Below are positions 11,983 to 17,297 of a stretch of 64,000 nt of DNA, one piece after another. The notes under the pieces were generated by a model. That model was given only the letters and a program-made list of their open reading frames with translations. It did not search any database and had not been told where the DNA came from. The DNA lies in the NCBI GenBank assembly GCA_947494995.1, contig CANLWY010000001.1:868001-932000 (forward strand), given 5' to 3'. Each line of letters begins with the position of its first letter. Position 1 is the stretch's first letter. The position numbers and the translations under genes are program-made. Source of the stretch: an uncultured Campylobacterales bacterium. Its GTDB lineage: Bacteria; Campylobacterota; Campylobacteria; Campylobacterales; Arcobacteraceae.

Positions 11983-12117
11983 ATGGAATATAAAAACAAC
12001 ATTGAAGATTCAATATTTTATAAACAAAATATGAAAATACAAAAAAATTTATGGAAAGCATATACTCTAACATTAATTGTTAGTCTTATGGTGATTTTAG
12101 TACAAGGTGTAAATTAA
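11983..12117 (+). CDS. 44-residue single-helix membrane protein coupled to fur
   Basis: ATG at 11983 to TAA at 12115-12117 encodes 44 residues: a charged N-terminus (MEYKNNIEDSIFYKQN) and one hydrophobic helix (about 27-41, AYTLTLIVSLMVILV). The stop codon overlaps the fur ATG (TAATG), so fur translation is probably coupled to it. Two Fur-like boxes lie directly upstream. I recognise no family. It could be a real small membrane protein in the Fur regulon or a translated leader that sets Fur levels. Confidence 0.6.
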   Translation: MEYKNNIEDSIFYKQNMKIQKNLWKAYTLTLIVSLMVILVQGVN

Positions 12118-12566
12118 TGGCAAGTGAATATAGTATTGATTTTGATACTTTTTTATCAAGTTTTAAAGAGAAGGTATCAAAACTAGGATTTAAAAACTCT
12201 ATTCAAAAAGATTATATTTTAAAAGTTCTTTATTACACAGATGAACATTTATCTGCTGAGCAGATAACTGCAGAAGTAAAGAATGAATATAATATTGAAG
12301 TTGGTATTGCAACTGTTTATAGAACAATGAGCTTTTTTGAGGAGTTGGACATCATTGAATCTTTGGATGTTGGTGATGGAGTAAAAAGATATGAATTAAG
12401 CCTTGCCTTACATCATGACCATTTAGTTTGTATCTCTTGTGGTAAAGTTATAGAGTTTACAGATGATATTATAGAAGAACAGCAACAAAAAGTTGCTGAT
12501 AACCACAACTTTGATTTAAAAGACCATGTTATGACTATCTATGGTCTTTGTGAAAACTGTCAATAA
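12117..12566 (+). CDS. fur: Ferric uptake regulator Fur
   Basis: This is a 149-residue Fur-family repressor. A winged helix at about residues 20-90 contains the recognition segment EVGIATVYRTMSFFEEL. The metal sites are HHDHLVC, the first CxxC (CISCGK) and the last CxxC (CENC), plus the EFTDDIIEE acidic stretch. The N-terminal extension resembles Campylobacter/Helicobacter Fur. With Fe(II) it represses uptake genes. It lies between the feo operon and the ferrosome-like operon and is translationally coupled to a 44-residue ORF. The Fur boxes ahead of that ORF imply self-regulation. Confidence 0.93.
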   Translation: MASEYSIDFDTFLSSFKEKVSKLGFKNSIQKDYILKVLYYTDEHLSAEQITAEVKNEYNIEVGIATVYRTMSFFEELDIIESLDVGDGVKRYELSLALHHDHLVCISCGKVIEFTDDIIEEQQQKVADNHNFDLKDHVMTIYGLCENCQ

Positions 12567-12591
12567 AAGAGAAGTTTTTAACTTCTCTTTC
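12566..12591 (+). terminator. Terminator after fur
   Basis: The hairpin aaagagaagtt/aacttctcttt with a three-base loop starts at the fur stop codon and is followed by a T-rich tract. It separates fur from the next operon. Confidence 0.75.
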
Positions 12592-12606: not shown

Positions 12607-12621
12607 TGATAATGAGTACGA
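12607..12621. promoter_or_regulatory. Weak Fur-like box upstream of the ferrosome-like operon
   Basis: TGATAATGAGTACGA has a perfect left half-site (TGATAAT) and a degenerate right half (11 of 14 overall). It sits about 57 nt ahead of the first gene of the operon. Confidence 0.4.
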
Positions 12622-12678
12622 TTTTGGAATAAGCTTCACTTAAGTGTCACTTGGCAGAATTACATTAAAGGATTTTTT

Positions 12679-12993
12679 TTGATAAAAACAGAAGATATTA
12701 TAAAAATAGCAAGTTATTTTTCAATAATTGCTCATACTCCAGGACGACTTAGAGTAAGAGTGAACCCTAAAATAAAAGAAGAGGGTGGAAGTATAACTAT
12801 AGAAGATATAGAGGCCTTACCACAAAGAATAAATGGTATTAAAAGTATTAAAGTAAAAAAGATTATTGCCTCTGTTACTATTATGTATGAGCCACAAATT
12901 TTTGCTCCAAAGCTTTGGGAAGATTTAGTAAAAAATGAAAATTTAGATGAGTTAACAAGTTTAATAAATAATTTAGCAAAGGAGGTTGCATAG
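12679..12993 (+). CDS. HMA-like domain protein with arginine motif (ferrosome-cluster candidate)
   Basis: This is a 104-residue protein with a TTG start and aaagga upstream. Residues 14-75 resemble the HMA_2-type ferredoxin-like fold, with HTPGRLRVRV (19-28) followed by a LPQRINGIKSIKVKKI strand-helix and an SVTIMYEP strand. The metal-binding CxxC of classical HMA domains is absent, and alternating arginines (R23, R25, R27) occupy that loop. The ATPase encoded at 14715 has a similar Arg motif. It is the first gene of a tight seven-gene operon. An accessory role for the ATPase is inferred; fez clusters commonly contain such proteins. Confidence 0.7.
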   Translation: MIKTEDIIKIASYFSIIAHTPGRLRVRVNPKIKEEGGSITIEDIEALPQRINGIKSIKVKKIIASVTIMYEPQIFAPKLWEDLVKNENLDELTSLINNLAKEVA

Positions 12994-12994
12994 T

Positions 12995-13675
12995 TTGGTA
13001 GTAAATAATGATGAGGTTTTATTAGTAAGTCAAAGGGTTGATGAAAATGATGCACAAGCAATAATTTCTCAAGTTCTTAGAATAGCAATCTATGATGAGT
13101 GCAAAGCTTATGAAGCCTATGTAAAAATTATTGAGAAGTTTGGATTGGTTCAGCCTTTTGTACATATAAAAGAGTCAGAAGCTAGACACTATGCCTCTTT
13201 GATTCCTTTATTACAAAAATACAATGTTGAAGTTCCTATAAATGATTGGGCTACAAAAATTGAAGCCCCAAATAGTTTTATAGAAGCTTGTGAATTAGGT
13301 GTTGCAGCTGAAATAAAAAATATAGCTATGTATGACCATCTTTTACAATATGTCCAAGAAGCAGATATTAGAGATGTTTTCTATAGATTGCAAGCACACT
13401 CTTATAATAATCATCTTCCTGCATTTAGGAATTGTGTAACAGATCATTATACAGTTTCAAATAATGTACAGGGATTTAATCAAGAAGAAGTAATGCAGAA
13501 AATAGGTGAGTATCAAATGATACTTGAAGATATGTTAAATGGAAATATGGACCAATCAAAATTAACTGATTTATTATCAAAGTTAAATATTTCCATGTTA
13601 TCAGGAGCGGCGTTTGGAAGTGCAGGGGTTGCATTTTTAAATAGTTATTTAGAAAAGAAAAATCAAGAGGAGTAA
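12995..13675 (+). CDS. Ferritin-like DUF2202-type diiron protein with hydrophobic C-terminus
   Basis: I place the start at TTG 12995, 9 nt after a strong aaggagg; an earlier TTG at 12986 would abut the ribosome site. The 226-residue product matches ferritin-like DUF2202 proteins. Candidate diiron ligands are E35 (YDECKAY), E62/H65 (ESEARH), E100/E106 (ELGVAAEIKNIAMYD) and H140 (SYNNHL). After about residue 190 it departs from the family: a Gly/Ala-rich hydrophobic segment (MLSGAAFGSAGVAFLNSYL) precedes a charged tail, possibly a membrane tether. It is followed by the next gene after 3 nt. A ferroxidase role in iron mineral formation is inferred. Confidence 0.75.
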   Translation: MVVNNDEVLLVSQRVDENDAQAIISQVLRIAIYDECKAYEAYVKIIEKFGLVQPFVHIKESEARHYASLIPLLQKYNVEVPINDWATKIEAPNSFIEACELGVAAEIKNIAMYDHLLQYVQEADIRDVFYRLQAHSYNNHLPAFRNCVTDHYTVSNNVQGFNQEEVMQKIGEYQMILEDMLNGNMDQSKLTDLLSKLNISMLSGAAFGSAGVAFLNSYLEKKNQEE

Positions 13676-13678
13676 ATT

Positions 13679-13990
13679 ATGGCTTTACCATTTGTATTAG
13701 GATTAGCAGTAGGGGCTGGAGCAGTATTCGCATTTAATAAGTCTGATAAGATAAAAGATGCTGCCTGTAATGTATTTAAAAAATCAAAAGATGTTGCTTC
13801 TGACTCTTTAGAAAAAGGTAAAGAGACTGTTGAAGATGTAAAACAAACAATTAATGCAACAGCAGAATGTATAAAAGAGAAAAAAGCTAAAGCTATTGAA
13901 GAAGAAATAGAAAAAGTAGAAGAAGTTGTTGAAGAAAAAAAAGCTCCTGTAAAAAGAGGAAGAAAACCAAAAGTTAAGGACGAGGAATGA
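13679..13990 (+). CDS. Small YtxH-like membrane protein with basic tail
   Basis: This is a 103-residue protein. A glycine-rich hydrophobic helix at the very N-terminus (about 3-19, FVLGLAVGAGAVFAF) is followed by a long amphipathic, Glu/Lys-rich coiled region. The tail carries RGRKPK (93-98), similar to an AT-hook core. The GxxxG-like spacing in the helix suggests tight helix packing, as in small structural proteins of bacterial organelles. It overlaps the next gene by 4 nt. No known family apart from a general YtxH-like layout; role inferred from the operon. Confidence 0.6.
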   Translation: MALPFVLGLAVGAGAVFAFNKSDKIKDAACNVFKKSKDVASDSLEKGKETVEDVKQTINATAECIKEKKAKAIEEEIEKVEEVVEEKKAPVKRGRKPKVKDEE

Positions 13991-14352
13991 AATACCACCC
14001 ATTAGTAGATAATGCTGATAACCCAGTACTAAGAAGTGTAATAACTGGTGCTATAGCATCAGCTGTTGCTTCAGGTACTGTTAATATGAGAAAAGTTAAA
14101 AACGAAGAGATTTCAAAAGCTGAAGCTGTAAAAGAGGTAGTAAAAAGAACATCTCAAGGAGCAATTGCAACAGGTGCTGCAGTTGCAACAGCTGGATATT
14201 TAACTCAAAAGGGTGGTTTTTTCAAAGCTTTAACAGCTATTTCTATTGGTGTTGCAGGAGTATATGCAGTAGAAGTTTTAGATGAAAAACTTCAAGATAA
14301 AGAAGCTTTAGTTTGTTGTGAAAATGAAAACTTAATTGAAGAGGAAAAATAA
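13987..14352 (+). CDS. Small glycine/alanine-rich membrane protein of the ferrosome-like operon
   Basis: This is a 121-residue protein with hydrophobic Gly/Ala segments at about 16-33 (SVITGAIASAVASGTV), 57-75 (GAIATGAAVATAGYL) and 84-100. The tail is acidic and contains a CC pair (VCCENEN). The small-residue repeats are glycine-zipper-like and recall organelle membrane proteins such as those of magnetosomes and ferrosomes, though I cannot assign a family. It is translationally coupled to both neighbours, by a 4-nt overlap before and a 1-nt overlap after. Confidence 0.6.
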   Translation: MKYHPLVDNADNPVLRSVITGAIASAVASGTVNMRKVKNEEISKAEAVKEVVKRTSQGAIATGAAVATAGYLTQKGGFFKALTAISIGVAGVYAVEVLDEKLQDKEALVCCENENLIEEEK

Positions 14353-14711
14353 TGAATCAAAACCAAAATATGCAAAATCAAAATATGTATGATACAAATA
14401 TTGATAATAGTAGAGTTTATGCTGACCCTACTATGAATATCGGACAAAATCCTTATATCAATCCACAAGTAAATCAAATGAATCAAATGCCACAACAACC
14501 GCAACAACAAGGTATGTTTAATAATGGAGATTTTGTAAAAGGTGCTTTACTTGGAGCAGCTGTAACGTTTCTATTAACAAACAAAGGTGCACAAGAGACT
14601 CTTATGAAAGCTGCATCTAAAGGGACTGAACTATTTCAAGCAGGAATGGAAGAGTTAAAAGAGAGATATGAAGATGCACAAGCACAAATGGAAGCAAATA
14701 GACAAGAGTAG
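14352..14711 (+). CDS. Asn/Gln/Met-rich protein with a single hydrophobic helix
   Basis: This is a 119-residue protein in two parts. Residues 1-54 are a low-complexity, prion-like stretch rich in Asn, Gln, Met and Pro (for example MNQNQNMQNQNMY). Residues 58-76 form a glycine-rich helix (FVKGALLGAAVTFLLTN), followed by an amphipathic charged helix to the end. The C-terminal half resembles YtxH-like proteins and the 13679 product. The ATG overlaps the previous stop codon. The low-complexity head could drive self-association or coat an iron particle; this is inference only. Confidence 0.55.
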   Translation: MNQNQNMQNQNMYDTNIDNSRVYADPTMNIGQNPYINPQVNQMNQMPQQPQQQGMFNNGDFVKGALLGAAVTFLLTNKGAQETLMKAASKGTELFQAGMEELKERYEDAQAQMEANRQE

Positions 14712-14714
14712 TTT

Positions 14715-16823
14715 ATGATTAATCAATTTCAAAAAGTACATAGTACTTCCACTAGAGCTAGATATAAATTTTCTTTATTAAGAGATAAATCACTTGATGA
14801 AAATATATTAAAAGCAAATTTAGAGAAACTTTCAGGAGTTACTAGCGTAAGAATAAATAAAAAAGCATATAGCTTAATTTTTAATTTTGAAGAATCTAGT
14901 GTATGTGAAACCATTGAAGAAAAACTCTCTTCTTTAACAGTGGATGAATTACTAAATTCATCTAATGAAAACAGTTCAGTATGTATTTCTTGCGTAAGTG
15001 ATGAGGAACCAAGTTTTAAAAGAACAGCTTTAGCTAGTTCAGCTCTTGTAGCAGAAAGATTAGTAACAAGTGATTTATTAAAGTTTTCAATTACAGCAGG
15101 TGCTTCTTATCCAATTATTGTAGATGGAATAAAAGAGTTTTTTGAAGAAGGATTAACTTCAAGAGTTCTTGAAAGTGCGGCTGTTGGTATATCTATTTAT
15201 AGAAAAGATTATCTTGCTGCAAACTCTACAAATGCAATGTTAGAGCTTGGCGAATATATGGAAGAAACAACAGTTCATAAAAGTGATGATCTTTTAAAAG
15301 AGTTATCAAAACCTAATGTTGAAGAAGCTTGGGTAGAAAAAGAGATTGATGGAAAAGTTACAGAAATTTTAATAAAGAGTAAAGATATTCAAATTGGTGA
15401 TGTTGTAGTAGTAGGAATTGGAAATACAGTTCCTGTTGATGGGCATATTTTAGAAGGAAATGCAAGTGTAAATGAAGTCTCTATGACAGGAGAAGCTGAG
15501 CCTGTTATGAAAGTAAGAGGAGACAGGGTTATTTCTGGAACCATTGTAGAAGATGGTAGACTTAGAATTTGGGCAGAGCATGTTGGTGCTGATACAGCTA
15601 CGCAAAGAATAAAACACTATATAGAAAACTCTTTAAATGAAAAATCAGCAGTACAATTAAAAGCTACAAGACTTGCAGATAAACTTGTTCCTGTAACTTT
15701 AGGTTTAGCAGGAACATCATATCTATTAACAAGAGATTTCGAAAGAACAGCATCTATTTTACAAGCTGATTATTCATGTGCCTTAAAACTTGCAACACCA
15801 GTTGCTTTTAAATCAACAATTTCAAAAGCTGGACACAGTGGTATTATGATAAAAGGTGCAAAATCAATTGAAGCTTTAAATAGTGCAGATACTTTTGTTT
15901 TTGATAAAACAGGTACTCTAACAGAAGGAGAACTTGAAGTTATTTCAGTTGAATCTTTTGATAAGAACTGGAGTGAAGAAGATTTATTAAATCTTACTGC
16001 CTCTGCTGAGGAACATTATTTTCATCCTGTTGCTGAAGCAGTTGTAAAAGCTGCAAAATCAAAAGGGTTTATTCATATGCATCATGAAGAAGTAGAGTTT
16101 ATTGTAGCTCATGGAGTTAAGACTGAAGTAAATGGAAAAGCAGTAATAATTGGAAGTAGACACTTTTTAGAAGATGATGAAAAGATAGATTTTTCAAAAC
16201 ATAAAAAGAAAATTGAAAAATGCTTAGAAAATGGAAAAACTCTTTTATATATCGGTTTTGATGGTGTTTTATTAGGAACAATTGGTTTAGCTGATAACCT
16301 AAGAACAAATGCAAAAGAGTCATTAAAAAAGTTAAGAGAATTAGGTGCTAAGAATATCATTATGTTAACTGGCGATATAAAGAAAAAAGCAGACTTAATT
16401 GCAAATGAGTTAGATATTGATGAGGTAAGAGCAGAATTAAGACCAACGGATAAAGCAAAAATAGTAAAAGAGCTTATGGATGAGGGCAAAAAAGTTGCTT
16501 TTATTGGAGATGGTATAAATGATGCTCCAGCTTTAATCTCTGCTCATGTTGGTATTTCAATGAGTAGAGGAGCAGATATTGCAAAAGCTACAGCTGATGT
16601 GAGTTTATTAAAAGATGATATTGCAGCTGTTGTTGAAGCAAAAGATCTTGCAAATAAAACTATGAATTTAATCAACAACAATTTTAATGCAACTGTAGGT
16701 ATAAACTCTGCGATTTTGGCGGGAGCTACATTTGGATTATTTTCTCCTGTGGTAACTGCTGTTTTACATAATGGTACGACTATAGGATTATTATTGAATT
16801 CAATAAAAGGTGTAAAGGTATAA
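14715..16823 (+). CDS. fezB: P1B-type metal ATPase, FezB-like (ferrosome iron pump candidate)
   Basis: This is a 702-residue P-type ATPase. The N-terminal HMA-like domain (1-75) carries R14-A-R16 where copper and zinc pumps have CxxC. Other landmarks are actuator TGEA (258-261), membrane motif SCALKLATP (354-362) in place of the usual CPC, phosphorylation site DKTGTLT (D397), HP (437-438) and GDGINDAP (598-605). An Arg-rich N-terminus in a P1B-type pump next to small hydrophobic proteins is the hallmark described for FezB, the P1B-6 ATPase needed for ferrosomes. It probably loads iron into a membrane compartment. Cys only in the SCA position argues against a copper pump. Symbol by resemblance. 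Confidence 0.75.
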   Translation: MINQFQKVHSTSTRARYKFSLLRDKSLDENILKANLEKLSGVTSVRINKKAYSLIFNFEESSVCETIEEKLSSLTVDELLNSSNENSSVCISCVSDEEPSFKRTALASSALVAERLVTSDLLKFSITAGASYPIIVDGIKEFFEEGLTSRVLESAAVGISIYRKDYLAANSTNAMLELGEYMEETTVHKSDDLLKELSKPNVEEAWVEKEIDGKVTEILIKSKDIQIGDVVVVGIGNTVPVDGHILEGNASVNEVSMTGEAEPVMKVRGDRVISGTIVEDGRLRIWAEHVGADTATQRIKHYIENSLNEKSAVQLKATRLADKLVPVTLGLAGTSYLLTRDFERTASILQADYSCALKLATPVAFKSTISKAGHSGIMIKGAKSIEALNSADTFVFDKTGTLTEGELEVISVESFDKNWSEEDLLNLTASAEEHYFHPVAEAVVKAAKSKGFIHMHHEEVEFIVAHGVKTEVNGKAVIIGSRHFLEDDEKIDFSKHKKKIEKCLENGKTLLYIGFDGVLLGTIGLADNLRTNAKESLKKLRELGAKNIIMLTGDIKKKADLIANELDIDEVRAELRPTDKAKIVKELMDEGKKVAFIGDGINDAPALISAHVGISMSRGADIAKATADVSLLKDDIAAVVEAKDLANKTMNLINNNFNATVGINSAILAGATFGLFSPVVTAVLHNGTTIGLLLNSIKGVKV

Positions 16824-16825
16824 AA

Positions 16826-17044
16826 ATGGCTTTTGATAAAGAACTACAAAGAGAGACTGCAAAGATTGGTATGACAGCAACTCTAGGTGTTACAGTTGCA
16901 ACTTCATTATTTATGAAAAATAAGGCTGCAAAAAGAGCACATATTGTAGCAGGGGTTGCTTTTTGTGGATTTACTCTTTGGCATACAATGCTTTATGATA
17001 AATCTAAAAAAAGAGTTGAAGAAGTAGAAGCAAAAAAAGATTAA
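16826..17044 (+). CDS. 72-residue two-helix membrane protein with paired histidines
   Basis: This is the last gene of the ferrosome-like operon, 2 nt after the ATPase. It has two predicted helices (about 14-30 and 39-57). The second, AHIVAGVAFCGFTLWHTMLY, has His at both ends (H39 and H53) and one Cys (C47), a spacing that could bind haem or metal in the membrane. Basic residues flank both helices. No family is recognised. It is followed by a strong terminator. Confidence 0.6.
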   Translation: MAFDKELQRETAKIGMTATLGVTVATSLFMKNKAAKRAHIVAGVAFCGFTLWHTMLYDKSKKRVEEVEAKKD

Positions 17045-17067
17045 CAAAATAAAATAGATTTACTTTT

Positions 17068-17098
17068 AAGGAAGCTTGAAAAAGCTTCCTTTTTTTAT
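17068..17098 (+). terminator. Terminator of the ferrosome-like operon
   Basis: The hairpin aaggaagctt/aagcttcctt with a GAAA loop region is followed by a run of T. It begins about 24 nt after the last gene of the operon. Confidence 0.85.
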
Positions 17099-17112
17099 AT
17101 CTTTTTAATATA

Positions 17113-17127
17113 TGATAATAAATATCA
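17113..17127. promoter_or_regulatory. Fur box upstream of the 36-residue ORF
   Basis: TGATAATAAATATCA matches 13 of 14 positions of TGATAAT-N-ATTATCA, just downstream of the operon terminator. Confidence 0.6.
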
Positions 17128-17158
17128 GTTTCATATAAGTTTGTTAAGATAAAATTAT

Positions 17159-17173
17159 TGATAATTATTATTA
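17159..17173. promoter_or_regulatory. Second Fur box upstream of the 36-residue ORF
   Basis: TGATAATTATTATTA matches 13 of 14 consensus positions and ends 13 nt before the ATG of the 36-residue ORF, overlapping its probable promoter and leader. Confidence 0.55.
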
Positions 17174-17186
17174 ATAAGGAGAAAGG

Positions 17187-17297
17187 ATGCCTTTTTTACT
17201 TCCACTTGGAGCAGTATTAACAGCAGCTATTACTTTAAAAACAGTTGATAAGACAACAAAGAAGATGATAAAAAGAAGAAAAAGAACTAGTAAATAG
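17187..17297 (+). CDS. 36-residue hydrophobic/basic protein with its own Fur boxes
   Basis: ATG 17187 to TAG 17295-17297, with a strong ribosome-binding site (aaggagaaagg). The product is 36 residues: an N-terminal hydrophobic stretch (FLLPLGAVLTAAITL, about 3-17) and a highly basic tail (KKMIKRRKRTSK). The start resembles the 13679 product (MALPFVLGLAVGAGA), which suggests a shared origin. Two good Fur boxes and a terminator just upstream make it a separate iron-controlled unit. It may be a small component of the ferrosome-like system; no family is known to me. Confidence 0.6.
   Translation: MPFLLPLGAVLTAAITLKTVDKTTKKMIKRRKRTSK

Follow-up and report, generated by a model that had tools for sequence, protein, structure and literature searches.

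Ferrosomes are newly found iron organelles. In Rhodopseudomonas palustris they arise from six genes, RPA2333-2338 (PMC12016538), and FezC is, by experiment, a haem protein, a haem-binding cytochrome (PMC11334425). Here, we analyzed a window of 64,000 nucleotides (contig CANLWY010000001.1, positions 868,001 to 932,000, assembly GCA_947494995.1) from an uncultured Campylobacterales bacterium of the Arcobacteraceae, in which seven + strand genes lie directly downstream of fur, bracketed by two terminators. We read this set as a fez (ferrosome) operon, with a probability of roughly 0.8, and propose roles for a pump, a cytochrome, a MamC-like protein and a ferritin-like protein. Judging by its genes, the set very probably builds ferrosomes as membrane-bound iron stores. 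According to the open reading frame (ORF) list and the sequence, the genes occupy positions 12679-17044, and neighbours either overlap or stand 2-3 bases apart:

12679..12993, +, ORF2 (hma), HMA-like protein with Arg motif HTPGRLRVRV replacing CxxC (HMA_2 PF19991, 1e-4, below its cut-off)
12986..13675, +, ORF3, ferritin-like protein (DUF2202) with a Gly-rich membrane segment at its C-terminus (Pfam DUF2202, PF09968, 5e-6, over cut-off)
13679..13990, +, ORF4, N-terminal Gly-rich membrane segment and Lys/Glu-rich tail (one clear hydrophobic segment)
13987..14352, +, ORF5, MamC-like membrane protein (NF038051, MamC, 2.7e-4)
14352..14711, +, ORF6, Asn/Gln-rich N-terminus and YtxH-like C-terminal half (homologues adjoin FezB in Vibrio and Azospirillum)
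14715..16823, +, FezB-type P1B-6 ATPase, 702 residues (TIGR01525, 3.5e-144; tree; RAR and SCA motifs)
16826..17044, +, ORF8, stand-alone FezC/DUF4405-type cytochrome domain, 72 residues (31-row alignment; DUF4405 matches)

Comparison with six-gene ferrosome operons

The six-gene operon of Azospirillum runs in the order HMA fused to a FezC-like tail, HMA, ORF4-like, ORF5, ORF6 and FezB, and all of the window's parts except one have counterparts in it. The window differs by an additional DUF2202 gene between hma and ORF4, and by a FezC-like domain that is free of HMA and located behind fezB. Gene order was compared directly with the Azospirillum and Vibrio operons, and the HMA-like and small Gly-rich proteins of the window stand in the same order as there. 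By description, the R. palustris and Shewanella putrefaciens fez operons have in common with the window a FezB in last or next-to-last place, an HMA-like protein, a FezC-like protein and three small Gly-rich proteins.

A first-pass annotation, made from the letters of the window, had proposed a seven-gene fez operon adjoining fur, and all of its genes are found where it placed them. The fez identity is borne out by the FezC-like cytochrome domain and by a small-protein set that matches those of alphaproteobacterial and Vibrio operons. The annotation had also reported the Arg motif of the HMA-like protein and an ATPase with RAR for CxxC and SCA for CPC; the motifs HTPGRLRVRV, STRARYKFS and DYSCALKLATP are all present. 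Among its three small membrane proteins, ORF4 (one clear segment) and ORF5 (two) hold up, whereas ORF6 has a weak hydrophobic segment and no clear one. ORF6 was also taken for an unusual, Asn/Gln-rich member, which does not stand, as its C-terminal half is common to other operons of the fez type. For ORF4, we found no convincing family assignment; a weak Mms6-like match (0.045) was unrepeated in 20 relatives and was rejected.

We found the FezB-type ATPase in 64 of 104 Arcobacteraceae genomes and in 102 of 298 sampled Campylobacterota genomes. The gene-neighbourhood survey that had been suggested across Arcobacteraceae gave the same order, hma, DUF2202, ORF4, ORF5, ORF6, fezB, ORF8, in nearly all FezB-positive genomes; because of this repetition, the window's cluster is not a chance arrangement. 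Homologues of ORF2 occupy the equivalent place in nearly all operons surveyed. In the literature searched, which left the primary papers Grant 2022 and Pi 2023 outside, there was no mention of ferrosomes in Arcobacteraceae or other Campylobacterota families, nor of a MamC likeness of fez proteins.

An Arcobacter strain from chicken meat has its fez operon on a 133-kb plasmid (CP129951.1, 128912-133388; locus L095), and a second Arcobacter plasmid, CP134847.1, also carries a FezB-type ATPase. The trait can therefore be plasmid-borne.

The ATPase and the FezC-like domain

The ATPase begins with an HMA_2 N-terminal domain (Pfam) in which STRARYKFS, with RAR, replaces CxxC, and its DYSCALKLATP motif has SCA where CPC is expected. 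We built a tree of 64 rows that included both other P1B ATPases of the same genome. The window's ATPase falls in the SCA-type clade, while the CPC pumps, including the genome's two others, lie across the branch. Support by the Shimodaira-Hasegawa-like approximate likelihood ratio test (SH-aLRT) is 92 for the SCA-type side and 100 for a 32-row clade of proteobacterial, Desulfobacterota and Campylobacterota rows that contains the window's ATPase; one SCG-type Fusobacterium row falls outside. Membership of the Cu or Zn/Cd families (P1B-1, P1B-2) would go with CPC and a grouping with CopA or ZntA, and was not found here, where the window has SCA and a separate branch. The grouping with copper or zinc pumps that had been named in advance as counting against the fez reading therefore did not occur. 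By motifs and tree position, the window's ATPase is a FezB-type (P1B-6) pump, as first proposed.

The fezB gene of one relative (L022, genome G034) has a single in-frame TAA, which points to a pseudogene or else to an error in sequencing.

The 72-residue His-containing protein reported behind the ATPase is present, but its identity as a FezC-type domain had been missed. H39 and H53 of ORF8 are invariant across 31 aligned relatives. Of these, 15 match DUF4405 at E<=0.01; ORF8 itself scores 18.1 bits, under the Pfam cut-off of 26.7. It resembles the Desulfurispirillum indicum FezC (PMC11334425) in its short membrane domain, its two conserved histidines and a gene adjoining that of FezB, and differs in being 72 residues long and free of an HMA domain.

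A ferritin-like subunit of the operon

ORF3 scores 26.8 bits against PF09968, whose cut-off is 22, and its start is more likely the TTG at 12995, 9 nucleotides behind AGGAGG, than 12986. Its AlphaFold model, built from an alignment that leaves out one row from a plasmid record, is a helical bundle with a predicted local distance difference test score (pLDDT) of 85.9. The best solved fold match is MJ0754 (Foldseek E 2.2e-5; PDB 3q4n, 3q4o, 3q4r), which was crystallized with metal (3q4r). The two have in common the ferritin-like four-helix bundle and the ligand positions: in a profile alignment E38, E65xxH68, E109 and H143 of ORF3 align to E, ExxH, E and H of MJ0754. In contrast to MJ0754, the fez-type proteins have an extra conserved Gly-rich C-terminal membrane segment and belong to fez operons.

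Of 43 Arcobacteraceae proteins, 42 retain all five ligands, as do, among families that we give by handle only, 4/4 of f10, 5/6 of f2, all of f13 and 1/12 of f3. In f3, ligands 65, 68 and 143 are substituted in 10-11 of the 12 proteins and the gene is retained. The C-terminal Gly-rich segment is found in all rows, with G207 and G211 invariant. Thus, what all of them share is the anchor, and one lineage has lost the metal site.

DUF2202 is a fixed part of Arcobacteraceae fez operons. A profile of the fez-type protein matches in 64/64 FezB-positive genomes of this family, one match being a contig-end fragment, and gives a strong match in 0/40 FezB-negative ones; three of the latter have 35-39 bit matches to a different frame of 391-393 residues. 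In fez operons from other Campylobacterota families, a DUF2202-type gene is present in 26 of 30 cases, two of them matching weakly. Outside the phylum, four operons from the genus Pseudothauera and the family it belongs to (Rhodocyclaceae) have the gene in the same position, and it occurs in the operon of a gammaproteobacterial metagenome-assembled genome whose FezB falls among Campylobacterota. We did not find it in the Vibrio, Photobacterium, Azospirillum and Desulfovibrio-type fez operons examined. Weak profile matches in Cereibacter (L094) and in two Desulfobacterota loci (L232, L234) may reflect the Gly-rich tail alone and were left uncounted. The suggestion of a distinct Campylobacterota version is correct in that the ferritin-like gene is fixed there; it is not exclusive to the phylum, because some Rhodocyclaceae operons have it as well.

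MbfA is a membrane-bound ferritin with a rubrerythrin-like domain fused to VIT1. MbfA and the window's system both tie a ferritin-like domain to a membrane iron transporter; the window has separate genes, and a P-type ATPase where MbfA has VIT1.

ORF5 and the magnetosome protein MamC

ORF5 was rightly described as a small Gly-rich membrane protein, but its relation to a magnetosome protein had gone unnoticed: by profile comparison, it is a distant homologue of MamC (Mms13). The window's protein scores 21.2 bits against the MamC model NF038051. The equivalog cut-off of this model, 100 bits, is reached by no fez member, and the relatives' maximum is 61 bits, in Desulfobacterota; the family is therefore a homologue and not a MamC. 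The model matches 33 of 44 ORF5 relatives (best 6.3e-10) and 12 of 23 distant ORF5 proteins from other phyla (best 7.4e-15). It never matches the equally Gly-rich ORF4 family, nor the window's ORF6.

For the reverse comparisons (profile, hhalign, shuffle and residue column), we used a sequence that we take to be MamC and that the curated model scores at 135.6 bits, over its cut-off. Against the ORF5 profile it reaches 32.4 bits over 84 ungapped columns, compared to at most 15.2 bits for about 4000 shuffles that keep segment composition; hhalign gives E 2.3e-7. When the ORF5 profile was run against the PDB, no MamC entry came up. The structure predicted for ORF5 has three helices (pLDDT 88.6) and the protein has two clear hydrophobic segments. 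It shares with MamC colinear hydrophobic segments and an acidic helix, yet the ORF5 family is encoded in fez operons rather than beside mam genes. Glu66 and Asp70 of MamC are the residues linked to magnetite (PMC6584501, PMC7604359). Their columns are occupied by E46 and E50 in the window's ORF5, and hold E or D in 26/44 relatives (Glu66) and D or E in 23/44 (Asp70).

Across whole Arcobacteraceae genomes, the MamC model's matches with E values of about 1e-3 or better fall on the fez gene, which in one genome lies on a contig other than that of FezB; weaker matches, including frames of roughly 1040 residues, were taken as false. The model found nothing in 14 control genomes. Among 247 Desulfobacterota genomes it matches nine, eight of which have FezB; in seven the match is within a few kb of FezB on the same contig, and in one the two are split across contigs. 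The ninth, FezB-less genome holds a decayed fez remnant (L255, G1232:C46, 2697-3153), where a 49-residue ORF6 fragment lies beside a run-on ORF5-like frame. In the same Desulfobacterota survey, Desulfovibrio-type clusters have no MamC-like gene.

We tentatively propose, at somewhat less than even odds, that the fez ORF5 family and MamC come from one ancestor and that in both a charged helix bound to the membrane nucleates iron mineral or holds it. Ferrosomes and magnetosomes would then share a mineral-handling membrane protein.

Transcription unit, Fur sites and neighbouring genes

Around the seven genes we located the following features:

12117..12566, +, fur (ferric uptake regulator), upstream neighbour with its own terminator (Pfam FUR, 1.7e-35)
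12566-12590, terminator-like element after fur
12608..12626, +, candidate Fur box GATAATGAGTACGATTTTG (14/19 to the Fur consensus)
17068..17091, +, intrinsic terminator at the operon end (10-pair stem and T run)
17187..17297, +, ORF9, a 36-residue hydrophobic/basic peptide, a separate unit in the window (Fur-box-like site upstream)

The operon had been drawn as 12607-17297. Its seven genes stand; its right end does not, as the terminator at 17068-17091 precedes the separate 36-residue frame and places 17092-17297 outside the seven-gene transcription unit. The position of the operon and its weak candidate box suggest control by Fur. A score of 14/19 is attained in 1.7% of shuffles (p about 0.017), and a Fur-like site at p<=0.05 occurs in 21 of 67 fez operon upstream regions across the family. 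Another such site, at 17114-17132 (15/19), is located upstream of ORF9.

In many relatives, including loci L007, L018, L036 and L039, a peptide of the ORF9 type, 36-48 residues long (MPFLLPLGAVLTAA...KKMIKRRKRTSK), is encoded between fezB and ORF8. Given this position inside the operon, the peptide is probably an eighth fez component. In several genera, a second Fur-family gene follows ORF8 (L036, L039, L042, L064 and others), with about 41-43% identity to the window's fur. The fez operon is often preceded, directly or at a short distance, by a further gene for a heavy-metal P-type ATPase (before hma in L054-L059, L061, L101 and L102; also L232, L233, L235, L237 and L238), and L239 and L242 have a tandem pair of FezB-like genes.

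Proposed mechanism and alternatives

The families, motifs, gene order, co-occurrence, intact ligand set and terminators are established here, and from them we infer the functional steps. As in its P1B-6 family, the FezB-type ATPase would pump cytosolic Fe(II) into a membrane vesicle. ORF8, like the tested FezC, may carry electrons across the vesicle membrane and so set the iron's redox state. The charged helix of ORF5 could nucleate or hold iron mineral, and ORF4 and ORF6 may give the membrane its shape or crowd it. With its Gly-rich C-terminus as a tail anchor, the DUF2202 protein would hold a ferritin-like di-metal site on the surface of the vesicle; its most likely task there is to oxidize Fe(II) or pass it on and to limit peroxide chemistry, like membrane ferritins of the MbfA type.

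Several points weigh against this account. The assignment to ferrosomes is deduced from the genes. Membership in the fez group comes through FezB-type relatives and not through alignment to the R. palustris and S. putrefaciens operons, whose ferrosomes are proven, or to FezB of Desulfovibrio magneticus and Clostridioides difficile. A ferroxidase role of DUF2202 cannot be universal, because 11 of 12 f3 proteins have lost the ligand set. The Fur box at 12608-12626 is suggestive only.

The same genes could instead form a module for efflux and detoxification of iron or another metal at the cytoplasmic membrane. There would then be no organelle; the ATPase would export metal, and DUF2202 would sense or load it. 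P1B ATPases are usually exporters, pairs of membrane ferritin and exporter exist, as in MbfA, and the vesicle is deduced from protein families. However, small Gly-rich proteins, a FezC-like cytochrome and an SCA-type FezB together match ferrosome-type operons, and such extra parts would be superfluous for a simple efflux pump; we consider this explanation improbable. Within a fez operon, DUF2202 might serve as a structural or peroxide-protective part instead of as a ferroxidase, with a metal site that it can do without. The f3 family, which keeps the gene with replaced ligands, and the two invariant C-terminal glycines favour this idea, while the five ligands preserved in nearly all Arcobacteraceae proteins and throughout f10 and f13, and the metal-bound crystal of MJ0754, argue against it. 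It is a real possibility, though we lean the other way. That ORF5 and MamC merely converged as Gly/Ala-rich membrane proteins would fit the low score of the window's protein, far under the MamC cut-off, but we regard it as very improbable given the long ungapped alignment that shuffles do not approach, the higher Desulfobacterota scores, a genome-wide model that picks the fez gene, and the lack of matches among the ORF4 family and the window's ORF6.

Implications

The fez reading extends probable ferrosomes to Arcobacteraceae and other Campylobacterota families. With a fixed ferritin-like subunit, two known modes of iron storage, by protein and by membrane vesicle, would be united in one system. 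The small proteins of ferrosomes have no assigned function in the literature accessible, and homology to MamC offers one of them a candidate role, mineral nucleation. It also links ferrosomes with magnetosomes and suggests that one part is common to both iron organelles. If the shared ancestry of ORF5 and MamC is true, part of the magnetosome toolkit may derive from, or return to, an iron-storage organelle of several phyla.

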